This document shows positions 17,674 to 21,741 of a stretch of DNA of 64,000 nucleotides, one piece after another. Source of the stretch: Arthrobacter sp. CDRTa11 (GTDB taxonomy: Bacteria > Actinomycetota > Actinomycetes > Actinomycetales > Micrococcaceae); the NCBI RefSeq assembly GCF_026427775.1, contig NZ_CP044532.1:3720001-3784000 (forward strand), in the 5' to 3' direction. Position numbers and translations under genes: made by a program. The notes below the pieces were generated by a model. The model was not told the DNA's origin, ran no database searches, and worked only from the letters and a program-made list of their open reading frames with translations. The stretch's first letter is position 1. The number at the start of each line of letters is the position of its first letter.

Positions 17674-19356
17674 ATGTCTGAACGGATGACCCTCAGCGAC
17701 CTCGACATTGCCAGGCAGGCCAGCATCAGGCCCATCGAAGACATCGCGGCGGCTGCCGGCATCAACTCCGGGGCGCTTGAGCTGTATGGCAGGTTCAAGG
17801 CAAAGATTGACCCGGCACGGCTGGACGCCCCGGCCCCCGCAGGAAAGGTGGTGCTGGTTTCGGCCATGTCCCCTACCCCCGCCGGCGAAGGGAAATCCAC
17901 CACAACGGTTGGCTTGGCTGATTCGCTGGCGCGGGCCGGCCACAAGGTGATGATTGCGCTGCGGGAACCGTCACTGGGGCCGATCCTGGGCATGAAGGGC
18001 GGTGCCACCGGCGGCGGCTATTCCCAGGTTCTTCCCATGGATGAGATCAACCTGCACTTCACGGGCGACTTCCATGCCGTGACCTCCGCGAACAATGCGC
18101 TGATGGCGCTCGTGGACAACCACATCTACCAGGGCAACGAGCTGAACATAGATCCGCGGCGGATGACTTTTAAGCGGGTCCTGGACATGAACGACAGGTC
18201 GCTGCGGGAAATCATCATCGGGCTGGGCGGGCCAACCCAGGGAGTCCCCCGGCAGGACGGGTTCGACATCACCGTAGCCTCGGAGATCATGGCGGTGTTC
18301 TGCCTGGCCACCGACCTGGCGGACCTCCGCAGGCGCCTGGGCCTGATTACGTTCGGCTACACGTATGACCGTTCGCCTGTCACGGTAGCTGACCTGGGCG
18401 TCGAGGGTGCGCTGGCGCTGCTCCTCAAGGAAGCCATCAAGCCCAACCTGGTGCAGACCATCGCCGGTACCCCGGCGCTGGTCCACGGCGGGCCGTTCGC
18501 CAACATCGCGCACGGCTGCAATTCCCTCATTGCCACGCAGACAGCACGGCGGCTTGCCGACATTGTGGTGACCGAGGCCGGGTTTGGCGCAGACCTGGGT
18601 GCGGAGAAGTACATGGACATTAAGGCGCGCGTAGCGGATGTGGCGCCGTCCGCCGTCGTGGTGGTGGCCACCGTGAGGGCTCTGAAGATGCAGGGCGGCG
18701 TGGCTGCGGACAGGCTCAAGGAACCGGACCTCGAGGCGCTTCTCGCCGGCATTGATAATCTTCGCCGCCATGTCCACAACGTGGCGAAGTTCGGGGTGAC
18801 ACCCGTGGTGGCCATCAACAGGTTCGCCACGGACACACAGGAGGAGCTCGACTGGCTTCTCGAGTGGTGCGCCGCCGAGGGTGTCCTGGCGGCGGTTGCG
18901 GATGTGTGGGGACGCGGCGGCGGCGGGGACGGCGGCGATGAACTGGCAGCCATAGTCGCCAAGGTGGTTGCCGAACCCAACGGCTTCAAACACCTGTACC
19001 CGCTGGACCTGCCGGTGGAGGACAAGATTGCTCGAATTGCCCGTGAGATATACGGCGCGGACGGGGTGGAGTTCTCGGTCCCGGCTCAGAAACGGCTGGC
19101 GGACATCCGAAAAAACGGCTGGGGCGGACTGCCGGTCTGCATGGCCAAGACCCAGTATTCCTTCAGCGACGACGCTTCCCGGCTTGGTGCGCCCAGCGGC
19201 TTCACCATCCATGTGCGCGACCTCATCCCCAAGACCGGCGCCGGGTTCATCGTGGCCCTGACCGGAGCCGTGATGACCATGCCAGGCCTGCCGCCTGTCC
19301 CGGCGGCGATGCGGATGGACGTGGACGACGCCGGCAACCCCGTCGGCCTCTCCTGA
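17674..19356 (+). CDS. fhs: Formate-tetrahydrofolate ligase
   Basis: 560 residues, standard length. The P-loop is [20 protein letters not shown] (about 68-87). The family signature GAKGGAAGGG-type loop is present as [17 protein letters not shown] (about 107-123). [17 protein letters not shown] and [15 protein letters not shown] also match. It activates formate as 10-formyl-THF using ATP, for one-carbon metabolism. It starts 48 bases after mshA on the same strand, with GAACAAAGGACGAAG as ribosome-binding region. Its stop is followed five bases later by the repeat array at 19361. Confidence 0.96.
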
Positions 19357-19360
19357 CCGG

Positions 19361-19474
19361 GACGCTCTCTCACTTAATGTCGGTTTTCGAGCGACCCTCT
19401 CTCACCTAATGTCGGTTTTGAGCGACCCTCTCTCAGTCAATGTCGGTTTTCGAGCGACCCTCTCGCACCTACCG
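19361..19474 (+). repeat. Left direct-repeat array, 3 full units and 1 partial, flanking the DUF559 gene
   Basis: Units at 19361-19392, 19393-19423, 19424-19455 and a partial at 19456-19474. The shared pattern is GA(C)(C/G)CTCTCTCACTTAATGTCGGTTTTCGAGC, 31-32 bases, in head-to-tail order. The array begins five bases after the fhs stop codon. Reverse-complement copies occur at 20518-20650 on the other side of the gene. Confidence 0.9.
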
Positions 19475-19537
19475 AAGCCACATACCGCCTGTGGATAACT
19501 TCTGCAGCCTTTTGCCGTTTCGGGTAACAATGCCGTC

Positions 19538-20497
19538 ATGCGAAAGCAAAATTATCTGCCCCAGCCCTTAGCGACGGCTCCCTTCACCTTTGGCTCCGCA
19601 TTAGCCGCTGGCGTTAGCCTGACCAGGCTTCGCCGGAAGGATGTGGTCAACGTCGGTCGCGGCCTCTACCGGCCTACCAACTGGGACTTTGAACTGGAAG
19701 ATGCCGCCAGGGCTCTGTCGGCTGCATCGCCCGGAGCCTGGATCTCGCACGTCACCGCTGCCCGGCTTCGGTGCCAGCTACTGCCTCCCTGGCTTGCCGA
19801 TTCCACGGAACTTCATCTAAGCAAGCCCCGCTCGCTTCCATCGGTCCGTCGAAAGGGCGTGGTAGGCCACACCGTCCTGACAATGGACGACGAGAGCGAA
19901 CTGGTGGACGGCATCAGGATGAGCACACGGTCTCGGACGTGGCTCGATTTGGCCCGGATCCTGCCGCTCCATGACCTGGTGAGCATGGGCGACGAGCTGA
20001 TCCGCATCCCCCGGCTGGACTTCGAAGGACGCTCACAGCCTCACGACACGATCGCGGGACTACGTGCGCTGGTGGGCCGACACCCGAATCTTCAGGGCAT
20101 CGTCCGGGCGCGTGAAGCACTGGATCTGATGCGCGTAGGTGCGGATTCCGCGCCCGAGTCGCTGCTTCGGCTGGCTATTGGCAGCGCCGGGCTGTCCGAG
20201 CCCGAACTTCAGGTGCCGTTGCGCACTGGAGACCCGCGGTCGCCGTCGGCCGATCTCGCCTACCGTCATCGCAGGCTCGCAATCCAGTACGACGGCGGGC
20301 ACCACCTTGGCGAGGCGCAGATCCTCAGCGACCGGAGACGGAATAGGGCTTTCGAGTCAGCCGGCTGGACGGTTCTGGTCTTCGACAAGAGCGATCTTGC
20401 GGACGATTTCGCGGGTGCAGTTGTGAAGATCAAGCGGGCCCTGCGCACGGGCTGGATTGACCATCCTCAGGCCTCCGGATTTGCCAGCATCGACTGA
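19538..20497 (+). CDS. AbiEi-like/DUF559 domain protein, Vsr-type nuclease fold
   Basis: 319 residues. The N-terminal part (about 10-50, FTFGSALAAGVSLTRLRRKDVV then GRGLYRPTNW) looks like the winged-helix start of AbiEi-type antitoxin-domain proteins. The C-terminal part looks like DUF559, a PD-(D/E)XK/Vsr-fold nuclease. It has Glu in ESLLRLAIGSAG, Asp239 in SADLAYRHRRL, and AIQYDGGHH (250-258), where Gln250 stands where many relatives have Glu. It ends near a basic FDKSDL helix. Target and role are unknown. There is no partner toxin gene and no clear ribosome-binding site. It is bracketed by mirror-image repeat arrays. Codon use is slightly less GC-rich than fhs, judged by eye. Confidence 0.72.
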   Translation: MRKQNYLPQPLATAPFTFGSALAAGVSLTRLRRKDVVNVGRGLYRPTNWDFELEDAARALSAASPGAWISHVTAARLRCQLLPPWLADSTELHLSKPRSLPSVRRKGVVGHTVLTMDDESELVDGIRMSTRSRTWLDLARILPLHDLVSMGDELIRIPRLDFEGRSQPHDTIAGLRALVGRHPNLQGIVRAREALDLMRVGADSAPESLLRLAIGSAGLSEPELQVPLRTGDPRSPSADLAYRHRRLAIQYDGGHHLGEAQILSDRRRNRAFESAGWTVLVFDKSDLADDFAGAVVKIKRALRTGWIDHPQASGFASID

Positions 20498-20517
20498 TAG
20501 AGGGTTCGTCAAAAAGC

Positions 20518-20650
20518 CACATTAAGTGAGAGAGGATCGGCCCTGAAGCGACATTAAGTGAGAGAGGATCGTTGGCGCTTAAAGCCATGACGCTCCCCCA
20601 CCAGAGTGAGAGAGCGTCACGCCAAAAGCTGCAGCAAGTGAGAGAGCGTC
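20518..20650 (-). repeat. Right repeat array, inverted relative to the left array
   Basis: On the minus strand the repeat core CTCTCTCACTT recurs at 20650-20631, 20618-20601, 20571-20549 and 20539-20518. The last two carry the full TTAATGTCG/TTAATGTGG extension. One opposed copy at 20589-20601 makes a 13-bp imperfect hairpin with the copy at 20606-20618. The array begins about five bases beyond the ino1 stop codon, mirroring the left array after fhs. Confidence 0.88.
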
Positions 20651-20655
20651 CGGGG

Positions 20656-21741
20656 TTAGCGCTCCAGGTCGCCGCGGATGAAGGCCTCGACCTTTTCACG
20701 GGCGAGGTCGTCGTTGAACTGCTCCGGCGGGGACTTCATGAAGTAGCTCGAAGCGGAGAGCAGCGGGCCGCCGACGCCGCGGTCCAGGCCGATCTTGGCG
20801 GCACGGATGGCGTCGATGATCACACCGGCGGAGTTGGGTGAGTCCCAGACTTCCAGCTTGTATTCCAGCGACACCGGGGCATCGCCGAAGTTGCGGCCCT
20901 CGAGGCGCACAAACGCCCACTTGCGGTCATCGAGCCACTGGACGTAATCGGACGGGCCGATGTGGACGTCCTTGGCTGCGAGCTCGGCCTCAACGTTGGA
21001 GGTCACGGCCTGCGTCTTGGAAATCTTCTTGGACTCCAGGCGGTCCCGCTCCAGCATGTTCTTGAAGTCCATGTTGCCGCCGACGTTCAGCTGGTACGTG
21101 CGGTCCAGGGTGACGCCGCGATCCTCGAACAGTTTGGCCATGACCCGGTGTGTGATGGTGGCACCGATCTGGCTCTTGATGTCGTCGCCCACGATCGGCA
21201 CGCCGGCAGCGGTGAACTTGTCAGCCCACGCCTTGGTGCCGGCGATGAAGACCGGGAGGGCGTTGACGAAGGCAACTCCGGCGTCGATGGCTGCCTGCGC
21301 GTAGAACTCCGCGGCTTCCTGGGATCCGACGGGGAGGTAGCAGACCATGACGTCAGCCTTGGCGTCCTTGAGGGCCTGGACGACGTCCACCGGCTCTACC
21401 GGGGACTGCTCGATGGTCTCAAGGTAGTACTTGCCAAGCCCGTCAAGGGTGTGGCCGCGCTGGACGGTGACACCGGTGGGCGGAACGTCGGCGATCTTGA
21501 TGGTGTTGTTTTCGCTGGCCAGGATGGCGTCCGCCAGGTCAACGCCGACCTTCTTGCCGTCAACGTCAAACGCTGCAACGAACTGGACGTCGTTAACGTG
21601 GTACTTGCCGAACTCCACGTGCATCAGACCGGGGATTGTGGCCTTCGGATCGGCGTCACGGTAGTAGTGCACACCCTGGACGAGCGAGGCGGCGCAGTTA
21701 CCCACACCGACGATTGCAACACGAATCGGATTTGAAGACAC
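20656..21741 (-). CDS. ino1: Inositol-3-phosphate synthase
   Basis: 361 residues from a GTG at 21741, chosen for the AAAGGAG ribosome-binding site just upstream. The frame runs 25 codons further but without a signal. It begins [20 protein letters not shown], the NAD-binding Rossmann loop. It has [15 protein letters not shown] (about 180-194) and [11 protein letters not shown] (about 215-225), both typical of actinobacterial myo-inositol-1-phosphate synthases. It converts glucose 6-phosphate to inositol 3-phosphate, the acceptor for MshA and for phosphatidylinositol lipids. The gene is monocistronic and faces the repeat array. Confidence 0.95.

Follow-up and report, generated by a model that had tools for sequence, protein, structure and literature searches.

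A nuclease gene bracketed by mirror-image repeat arrays in Arthrobacter sp. CDRTa11: a candidate repeat-plus-nuclease mobile system

The DNA considered here is a stretch of 64,000 nucleotides from the chromosome of Arthrobacter sp. CDRTa11 (contig NZ_CP044532.1, positions 3,720,001 to 3,784,000), which is referred to in its full length as the window. Our subject is a single gene encoding a protein with an AbiEi-like part and a DUF559-type nuclease part, which lies between two mirror-image arrays of a short repeat. The genes on either side are presumably fhs and ino1, names that came from the first reading of the sequence and suit these proteins. The locus consists of the following features, given in window positions:

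19357 to 20655: the whole unit of arm, gene, and arm, filling the entire fhs-ino1 gap (site S1)
19361 to 19470, plus strand: left arm of four tandem units, with cores at 19361-19375, 19393-19407, 19424-19438, and 19456-19470
19490 to 19498, plus strand: the element TGTGGATAA, 48 bp 5' of the start codon of the gene
19538 to 20497, plus strand: gene for a 319-aa protein, the sole gene in the fhs-ino1 gap
20524 to 20570, minus strand: inner two units of the right arm, with cores at 20524-20538 and 20556-20570
20589 to 20618: possible hairpin, in which a plus-strand core GACGCTCCCCCACC (20589-20602) would pair with a minus-strand core (20604-20618)
20636 to 20650, minus strand: outermost core of the right arm, ending 5 bases before the ino1 stop codon (20656-20658)

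The first unit consists of the core GACGCTCTCTCACTT followed by a 17-bp part, and the core starts of the left arm are spaced 32, 31, and 32 bp apart, with the fourth core being the degenerate GACCCTCTCGCACCT. This agrees with the three full units and one partial unit of the original prediction, as does the placement of each array about five bases from the stop codon of its neighbor, which is 5 bases both at fhs (TGA at 19354-19356) and at ino1. On the right, where four copies in the opposite orientation had been described, four minus-strand cores are indeed present, but their starts are unevenly spaced (32, 48, and 32 bp) and the arm includes one extra plus-strand core. Hairpins like the one at 20589-20618 also lie 3' of the gene in relatives and persist in gene-less copies of the site. 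All six occurrences of CTCTCTCAC in the window fall within this locus (100 shuffles gave a mean of 0.48 and a maximum of 2), as do all five window matches to GACGCTCTCTCACTTAATGTCG at up to 3 mismatches (0 in shuffles). Rfam yielded no match at the gathering score in nine loci and none up to an E-value of 1 in 19300-20700.

The lone gene between the arrays was correctly described as AbiEi-like/DUF559. PADLOC AbiEi models match the N-terminal part of the protein (residues 16-141, best E-value 1.4e-9), and Pfam DUF559 matches the C-terminal part (residues 239-302; E-value 2.1e-5, 24.8 bits versus a cut-off of 20.6). Residues 2-199 have a predicted AbiEi-like two-domain fold that aligns to AbiEi, and residues 204-307 have a predicted Vsr/I-Bth0305I-type nuclease fold that aligns to Vsr-type nucleases. 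Among 63 aligned relatives, E207, D239, D265, and R268 are invariant and H256 is conserved in at least 90%. Pfam, PADLOC, and NCBIfam returned DUF559, REase_MTES_1575, and AbiEi only, with no HUH tyrosine transposase (IS200/IS605-like) among the matches. Beside the window gene there is also no AbiEii/DUF1814 toxin gene, as its neighbors are fhs and ino1 with nothing else between them, which sets the locus apart from an AbiE toxin-antitoxin system.

The original proposal asked whether the repeat recurs elsewhere in the genome and whether solo arrays exist, and both are the case. Across the 5.16-Mb chromosome, GACGCTCTCTCACTT has 75 matches at up to 2 mismatches compared with 7 for a reversed control, and these group at about 20 sites outside the window (20 loci were read, leaving out two weak single matches). 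Inward mirror arms are present at about half of the sites read, often with an apical hairpin, and nearly all of the arrays read enclose no gene, the exception being an insertion sequence (IS) at locus L028. The 17-bp variable part is often nearly identical within an arm, while it differs between arms and between sites. Like CRISPR arrays, the repeats have short units and a nearly constant 32-bp period, but they differ in their inward mirror arms, their dispersed solo units, and the lack of any other gene in the gap. CRISPR-Cas was excluded because the variable parts recur within an arm and the DUF559 gene is the only one in the gap. Many arrays begin within 25 bp of a stop codon. Using genes called by a simple script, with the L028 arms that are split by the IS counted apart and four groups unclassifiable, the 20 classifiable arrays comprise 14 in co-directional gaps, 5 in convergent gaps, and 1 in a divergent gap, compared with 258 co-directional, 93 divergent, and 53 convergent gaps among background gaps of at least 60 bp in an 800-kb sample. 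Since the arrays are mostly found in co-directional gaps, their mirror shape is a property of the element rather than of neighbor orientation. The idea of entry into a convergent 3'-end gap thus proved too narrow, and a bidirectional terminator for convergent genes is a poor fit, since 8 of the 10 mirror arrays amenable to classification are between co-directional genes.

Every one of the 121 genomes searched in the genus contains a homolog of some kind. In a protein tree of 110 sequences made by a quick method, 83 of them form a single clade, here called clade A, with a support of 100 in the Shimodaira-Hasegawa-like approximate likelihood ratio test (SH-aLRT). When one mismatch was allowed within 450 bp of the gene, the A-type motif was found facing inward on both sides of 71 of the 83 clade A loci and on one side of the remaining 12, three of which have their second arm past one inserted gene. 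Among 27 loci of other clades, none had this motif on both sides and 5 had it on one. On the original question of whether copies cluster next to DUF559 genes, close relatives of the gene are thus bracketed by the motif. Many unlinked solo arrays combined with bare genes in close relatives had been named as the contrary pattern; solo arrays are indeed many, yet none of the 83 close relatives lacks the motif on both sides. Another set of 80 named loci (the best 80 of 121, from Arthrobacter, Pseudarthrobacter, Paenarthrobacter, and one Sporosarcina-labelled record, with genomes partly overlapping the other set) has the motif on both sides of 67, on one side of 10, and on neither side of 3, while control flanks 1.85-2.3 kb away were bracketed in 0 of 70 cases. 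One of the three motif-less loci, L279 (59% identity), resembles clade B, another, L249, has a different tandem core, and L253, which belongs to clade A by identity (68%), has no clear array. L278, like L249, has a core other than the A type. This locus comes from a record titled Sporosarcina beigongshangi REN13 and, despite the Firmicute label, is an Arthrobacter-type element beside an ino1-like end, so the assembly is likely mislabelled or contaminated.

The cores beside the gene vary (CTCTCTCAC, CTCCCTCAC, CTCGCTCAC, CCCGCTCAC, GCGCTCAC, and others) and differ by protein subclade. Four core classes were counted genome-wide in the 121 genomes, with reversed controls that were mostly 0 and at most 2. 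The classes are nearly exclusive in many genomes (counts of 114/0/1/0 in G057, 2/77/0/0 in G035, and 1/0/337/29 in G044), and in some genomes two are plentiful, such as G012 (0/0/104/114). The local core class is also the commonest genome-wide class at 58 of 74 loci, compared with a maximum of 38 in 10,000 shuffles (9 of the 83 loci were omitted, either because their genomes have under 8 copies or because they have fewer than 2 classed units). On the protein tree, core class changes 12 times, versus 35, 35, and 37 times in three shuffles, and the two clade A genes of genome G116 have distinct cores. Searched as a prediction, the unusual gene-side core of L278 has 49 matches in its own genome at up to one mismatch (control 5), of which 13 are exact and about 4 of those are the bracket itself, and it has 0 to 3 matches in 11 other genomes. 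Copies of the four cores reach a median of 33.5 in 82 clade A carriers (including G107, assigned by homolog match alone) versus 5 in 39 non-carriers (Mann-Whitney p 1.4e-9, a value that ignores kinship), with the bracket itself accounting for as many as about a dozen.

Clades B, C, and D, whose members are paralogs with at most 59% identity, initially appeared to be unbracketed. This was overturned by a motif-blind score, after which palindromes were found at most of their loci. The palindromes of these clades differ in sequence, so testing with the A-type motif introduces bias, and loci with few motif matches may still be bracketed. At most of the clade B loci (15, at S1), the gene is flanked on either side by a palindrome of about 60 bp with the core GTTGNNCTATCA, the clade C palindrome is about 65 bp with the core CAACGCGGGGTCACTT, and the clade D loci have others. 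A locus passed the motif-blind test of its two flanks with a score of at least 17 that was also 4 above the best of 20 shuffles, a threshold fixed after the initial scores. By this measure, 51 of 81 clade A loci, 26 of 35 loci of clades B to D, and 19 of 38 loci outside the genus pass, the last becoming 17 of 35 without three loci cut by contig ends (L329 and L333, which are among the 19 passes, and L301). The failures in clades B to D are L122, L125, L128, L129, L133, L140, L141, L142, and L325. Clade A passes this test less often than the motif test because its short divergent units score low. Control genes passed in 2 of 168 cases (1 of 89, which is L029 and is itself flanked by arrays, 1 of 34, and 0 of 45 in the window); these controls are unmatched for intergenic flanks, and in the window control the start assigned to the DUF559 gene was late, and the gene hence went unflagged.

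The clade B core is widely dispersed, being present in 60 of the 121 genomes, comprising all 24 clade B carriers (median of 10 copies, with 22 of 24 exceeding the 4 matches that a bracket can give) and 36 of 97 non-carriers (median 0); the carriers were assigned from the identity and range of their homolog matches, 15 of them by the tree as well. B-type copies remain in several genomes that now have a clade A gene at S1, with 22 in G045 and 20 in G054, which looks like the replacement of one system by another. Within CDRTa11, one-mismatch matches to the B core were uninformative in the sample (10 versus 19 for the reversed control). Two paralogs in this genome, L319 (G000:1391226-1392146) and L320 (G000:1492306-1493196), are each bracketed by a palindrome of their own, and at least three copies of the L319 palindrome, 83-86% identical, are dispersed in the 800-kb sample. 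Beyond the genus, a sample of 99 genomes from the order (including four from this genus) yielded homologs in 82 genomes and in 43 of 51 genera, and the order-level palindromes differ from locus to locus.

Clade A genes occupy three sites, with 52 entries at S1, 14 at S2, and 17 at S3, and their neighbors converge with few exceptions (L121 and L073). S2 is flanked by an aldehyde dehydrogenase gene and a formyltransferase-family gene. The window gene is located at S1, yet it nests among S2 genes (SH-aLRT of 92 for a group of 15 and 94 for an inner group of 7); therefore, a gene has changed place, and we infer the direction of that change. Six of nine genomes with no gene at S2 carry a mirror array there that encloses no gene and has a hairpin at its apex, one has a single degenerate hairpin, and the other two lack the dehydrogenase neighbor (this sample covers 11 of 16 genomes, and the dehydrogenase is just 56-60% identical to that of the carriers). 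G066 and G114 have a gene-less array at S1 and the gene at S3. The contents of S1 vary among clade A genes with arrays, arrays alone, clade B genes with palindromes, and a lone C-type palindrome, and the fhs-ino1 gap is a meeting place for several repeat families. The lone gene-less C-type palindrome was observed in this gap at L388 (G082) and L390 (G046), and clade B type palindromes surround a shortened, decayed nuclease gene there at L384 (G088) and L385 (G037).

The element TGTGGATAA, presumably a DnaA-box-like 9-mer, is found within 170 bp 5' of the start of 105 of 114 genus loci from four clades and of 1 of 495 other genes, with a median distance to the start of 46-48 bp clade by clade. 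Upstream of order-level loci it is present in 3 of 31 cases. Loci with a match starting beyond residue 20 were omitted from these counts. The element may overlap the promoter, and it hints at replication-linked control.

The closest parallel in layout is the pairing of repetitive extragenic palindromic (REP) sequences with REP-associated tyrosine transposases (RAYTs), known as REPtrons, and with it that of TIRtrons. In both cases, a gene sits between inverted copies of a short repeat that is otherwise mostly dispersed, gene-less, and intergenic, each repeat family, of which there are several, has an enzyme of its own, and IS are found within the repeats, as is ISPpu9 in REPs (PMC3733652, PMC8266576, PMC8450116). 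Gene bracketing by inverted copies and abundant gene-less copies were both found here, for the clade A cores as well as the clade B core. According to the same papers, RAYTs are HUH tyrosine transposases that act upon single strands and recognize a GTAG-tagged repeat. The enzyme here is unlike them in joining an AbiEi part to a Vsr-type nuclease. The constant core, RACGCTCTCTCACTT, contains no GTAG, nor does either window arm. Since both defining features of REPtrons, the HUH transposase and the GTAG tag, are lacking, the system would work in a REP/RAYT-like manner without being a member of that group, and its chemistry is probably different. From the type IV toxin-antitoxin AbiEi antitoxins, the window gene differs in having no adjacent toxin gene and an extra nuclease domain. 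It shares the predicted catalytic-domain fold of Vsr and EDxHD homing endonucleases such as I-Bth0305I, but its DNA-binding part is AbiEi-like, neither an intron nor an intein was seen, and the sites are dispersed repeats rather than one conserved gene. The RepRanger study counts REPs in one Arthrobacter genome, and its text makes no mention of RAYT or endonuclease (PMC12306157). In the open-licence full-text literature we found no account of an AbiEi-nuclease paired with repeats, though one may exist elsewhere.

Taken together, these comparisons suggest an undescribed repeat-plus-nuclease mobile system. We estimate a probability of roughly 70% that the locus belongs to a repeat-plus-nuclease family with a REP/RAYT-like layout and an unrelated enzyme of the homing-endonuclease type. 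As judged from genome comparison, the repeats bracket the gene, are dispersed, and change jointly with the protein, and the gene occupies three gaps, one of which has gene-less arrays in relatives. The repeat-nuclease partnership that was originally proposed is strongly supported by this dispersal, bracketing, and joint change, together with the brackets particular to the other clades, while the proposal as a whole is upheld in part. Two AbiEi monomers bind inverted repeats (PMC7319586), and I-Bth0305I dimerizes on a target of nearly 60 bp (review PMC3943268). The fusion of an AbiEi part to an I-Bth0305I-type nuclease beside inverted repeats of about 60 bp suggests that the protein recognizes and cuts its own repeat. 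Monomers would bind the inverted repeat via the AbiEi-like part, and the nuclease would cut or nick gene-less copies of the repeat. Repair that draws on the bracketed copy and uses its arms as homology would then copy the gene into gene-less sites, and such homing would explain both the position of the gene between arms and its changes of place. The repeats themselves might be multiplied by the same cutting and repair or by a separate transposition step. Whether this extends to a group of order-wide actinobacterial selfish elements, in which an AbiEi-nuclease both multiplies the palindromic repeat that belongs to it and homes into its copies, we regard as an evenly balanced question. Such a group would be REP-like but driven by a double-strand enzyme of the homing-endonuclease type in place of an HUH transposase, and its many repeat specificities would mean that the AbiEi-like part has been repeatedly re-targeted. 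In the papers cited, the known partner enzyme of short intergenic repeats is the HUH transposase RAYT, so the system, if real, would be a second, independent solution to the long-standing problem of the spread and persistence of such repeats. The common annotation of "DUF559 domain-containing protein" would then gain a testable function, and the many natural protein-repeat pairs would offer material for reading AbiEi-type DNA recognition.

Several observations weigh against this interpretation. Residue 250 is a glutamine, whereas PD-(D/E)XK enzymes usually have an acidic residue at the matching position, and it is from sequence that we infer binding, cleavage, and movement by the protein. No target duplication was identified and no clean pre-insertion junction was resolved among sites in which the inverted arms are present. 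An empty fhs-ino1 gap was looked for in relatives, as originally proposed, and G040 indeed has neither gene nor array at S1, but the gene-less arrays of G076, G039, and G073 retain a 3' piece of the cassette and therefore reflect gene loss rather than a pre-insertion state. For the palindrome of L320, the 800-kb sample shows no clear dispersed copy (5 one-mismatch matches versus 2 for the reversed control). Local and genome-wide core classes disagree at 16 of 74 loci, 10 of which are in the S3 subclade, whose cores lie further from the searched patterns. Of the 39 clade A non-carriers, 13 have at least 10 repeats. Two of the genomes with no clade A gene found, G042 (222 copies) and G027 (40 copies), have a contig that ends just past fhs, so the gene may be unassembled there; for the other repeat-rich genomes our guess is that it was lost. 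Conversely, 14 of 82 carriers have fewer than 10 four-core copies (0 in G010, 1 in G002, and 2 in G034). Comparison of each left arm with its own right arm against the right arms of other loci gave no discrimination (median fraction 0.30, with 10 of 83 under 0.1). Finally, the genomes are related, and the counts overstate their independence.

Among other explanations, the repeats could be operators that the AbiEi part binds without mobilizing them, such that the bracket serves in autoregulation or termination, the dispersed copies form a regulon or roadblocks past stop codons, and the nuclease is otherwise employed. According to PMC7319586, the promoters of AbiEi and Rv2827c do contain 23-bp inverted repeats to which these proteins bind, many arrays lie near a stop codon, and TGTGGATAA keeps a fixed position at a median of 46-48 bp before the start. 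We nevertheless consider this unlikely, as the bracket is on both sides of the gene rather than at the promoter alone, the gene changes location, copies range from 0 to hundreds among congeners, and a nuclease domain with invariant E207, D239, and D265 would be left unexplained. It is even harder to see the gene as a passenger that lands in insertion hot spots formed by arrays of some other system, or by slippage or recombination. Such hot spots would accommodate the absence of the gene from most arrays and the IS3-family element that sits at array apices in three places at a constant offset, but not the dependence of repeat and architecture upon nuclease clade (arrays in A, palindromes in most of B, C, and D), the agreement that usually exists between local and genome-wide core, or the recurrence of bracketing outside the genus with unrelated sequences.

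A very improbable explanation, in our estimate, is that gene, site, and repeat simply drift together down the species tree with no functional tie. All counts do come from related genomes and core class does track the protein tree, yet G116 has two genes with two cores, the S1 gene of CDRTa11 (G000) nests among S2 genes, and the local core is shared with copies throughout the genome rather than with the flanks alone. That the protein is a solo AbiEi-nuclease directed against DNA of phages or plasmids, and that the repeats serve it as marks or decoys, is barely plausible to us: the PADLOC AbiEi match to residues 16-141 would be expected, but there is no toxin gene between fhs and ino1 in the window, the gene lies between repeats in gaps that separate other chromosomal genes, and nothing was seen that marks the repeats as a defence signal.

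An additional observation concerns the IS3-family element mentioned above, which encodes an OrfA of 109 aa and an OrfB of 266 aa with an rve domain. It was found at two CDRTa11 loci, L028 (4056-5632) and L035 (2617-4063), and in the fhs-ino1 gap of G093 at L381 (1430-2900), loci that were all picked by their repeats. The element adjoins an A-type core at a nearly equal offset in each case. The two CDRTa11 copies are 99% identical, and L035 has one arm left.
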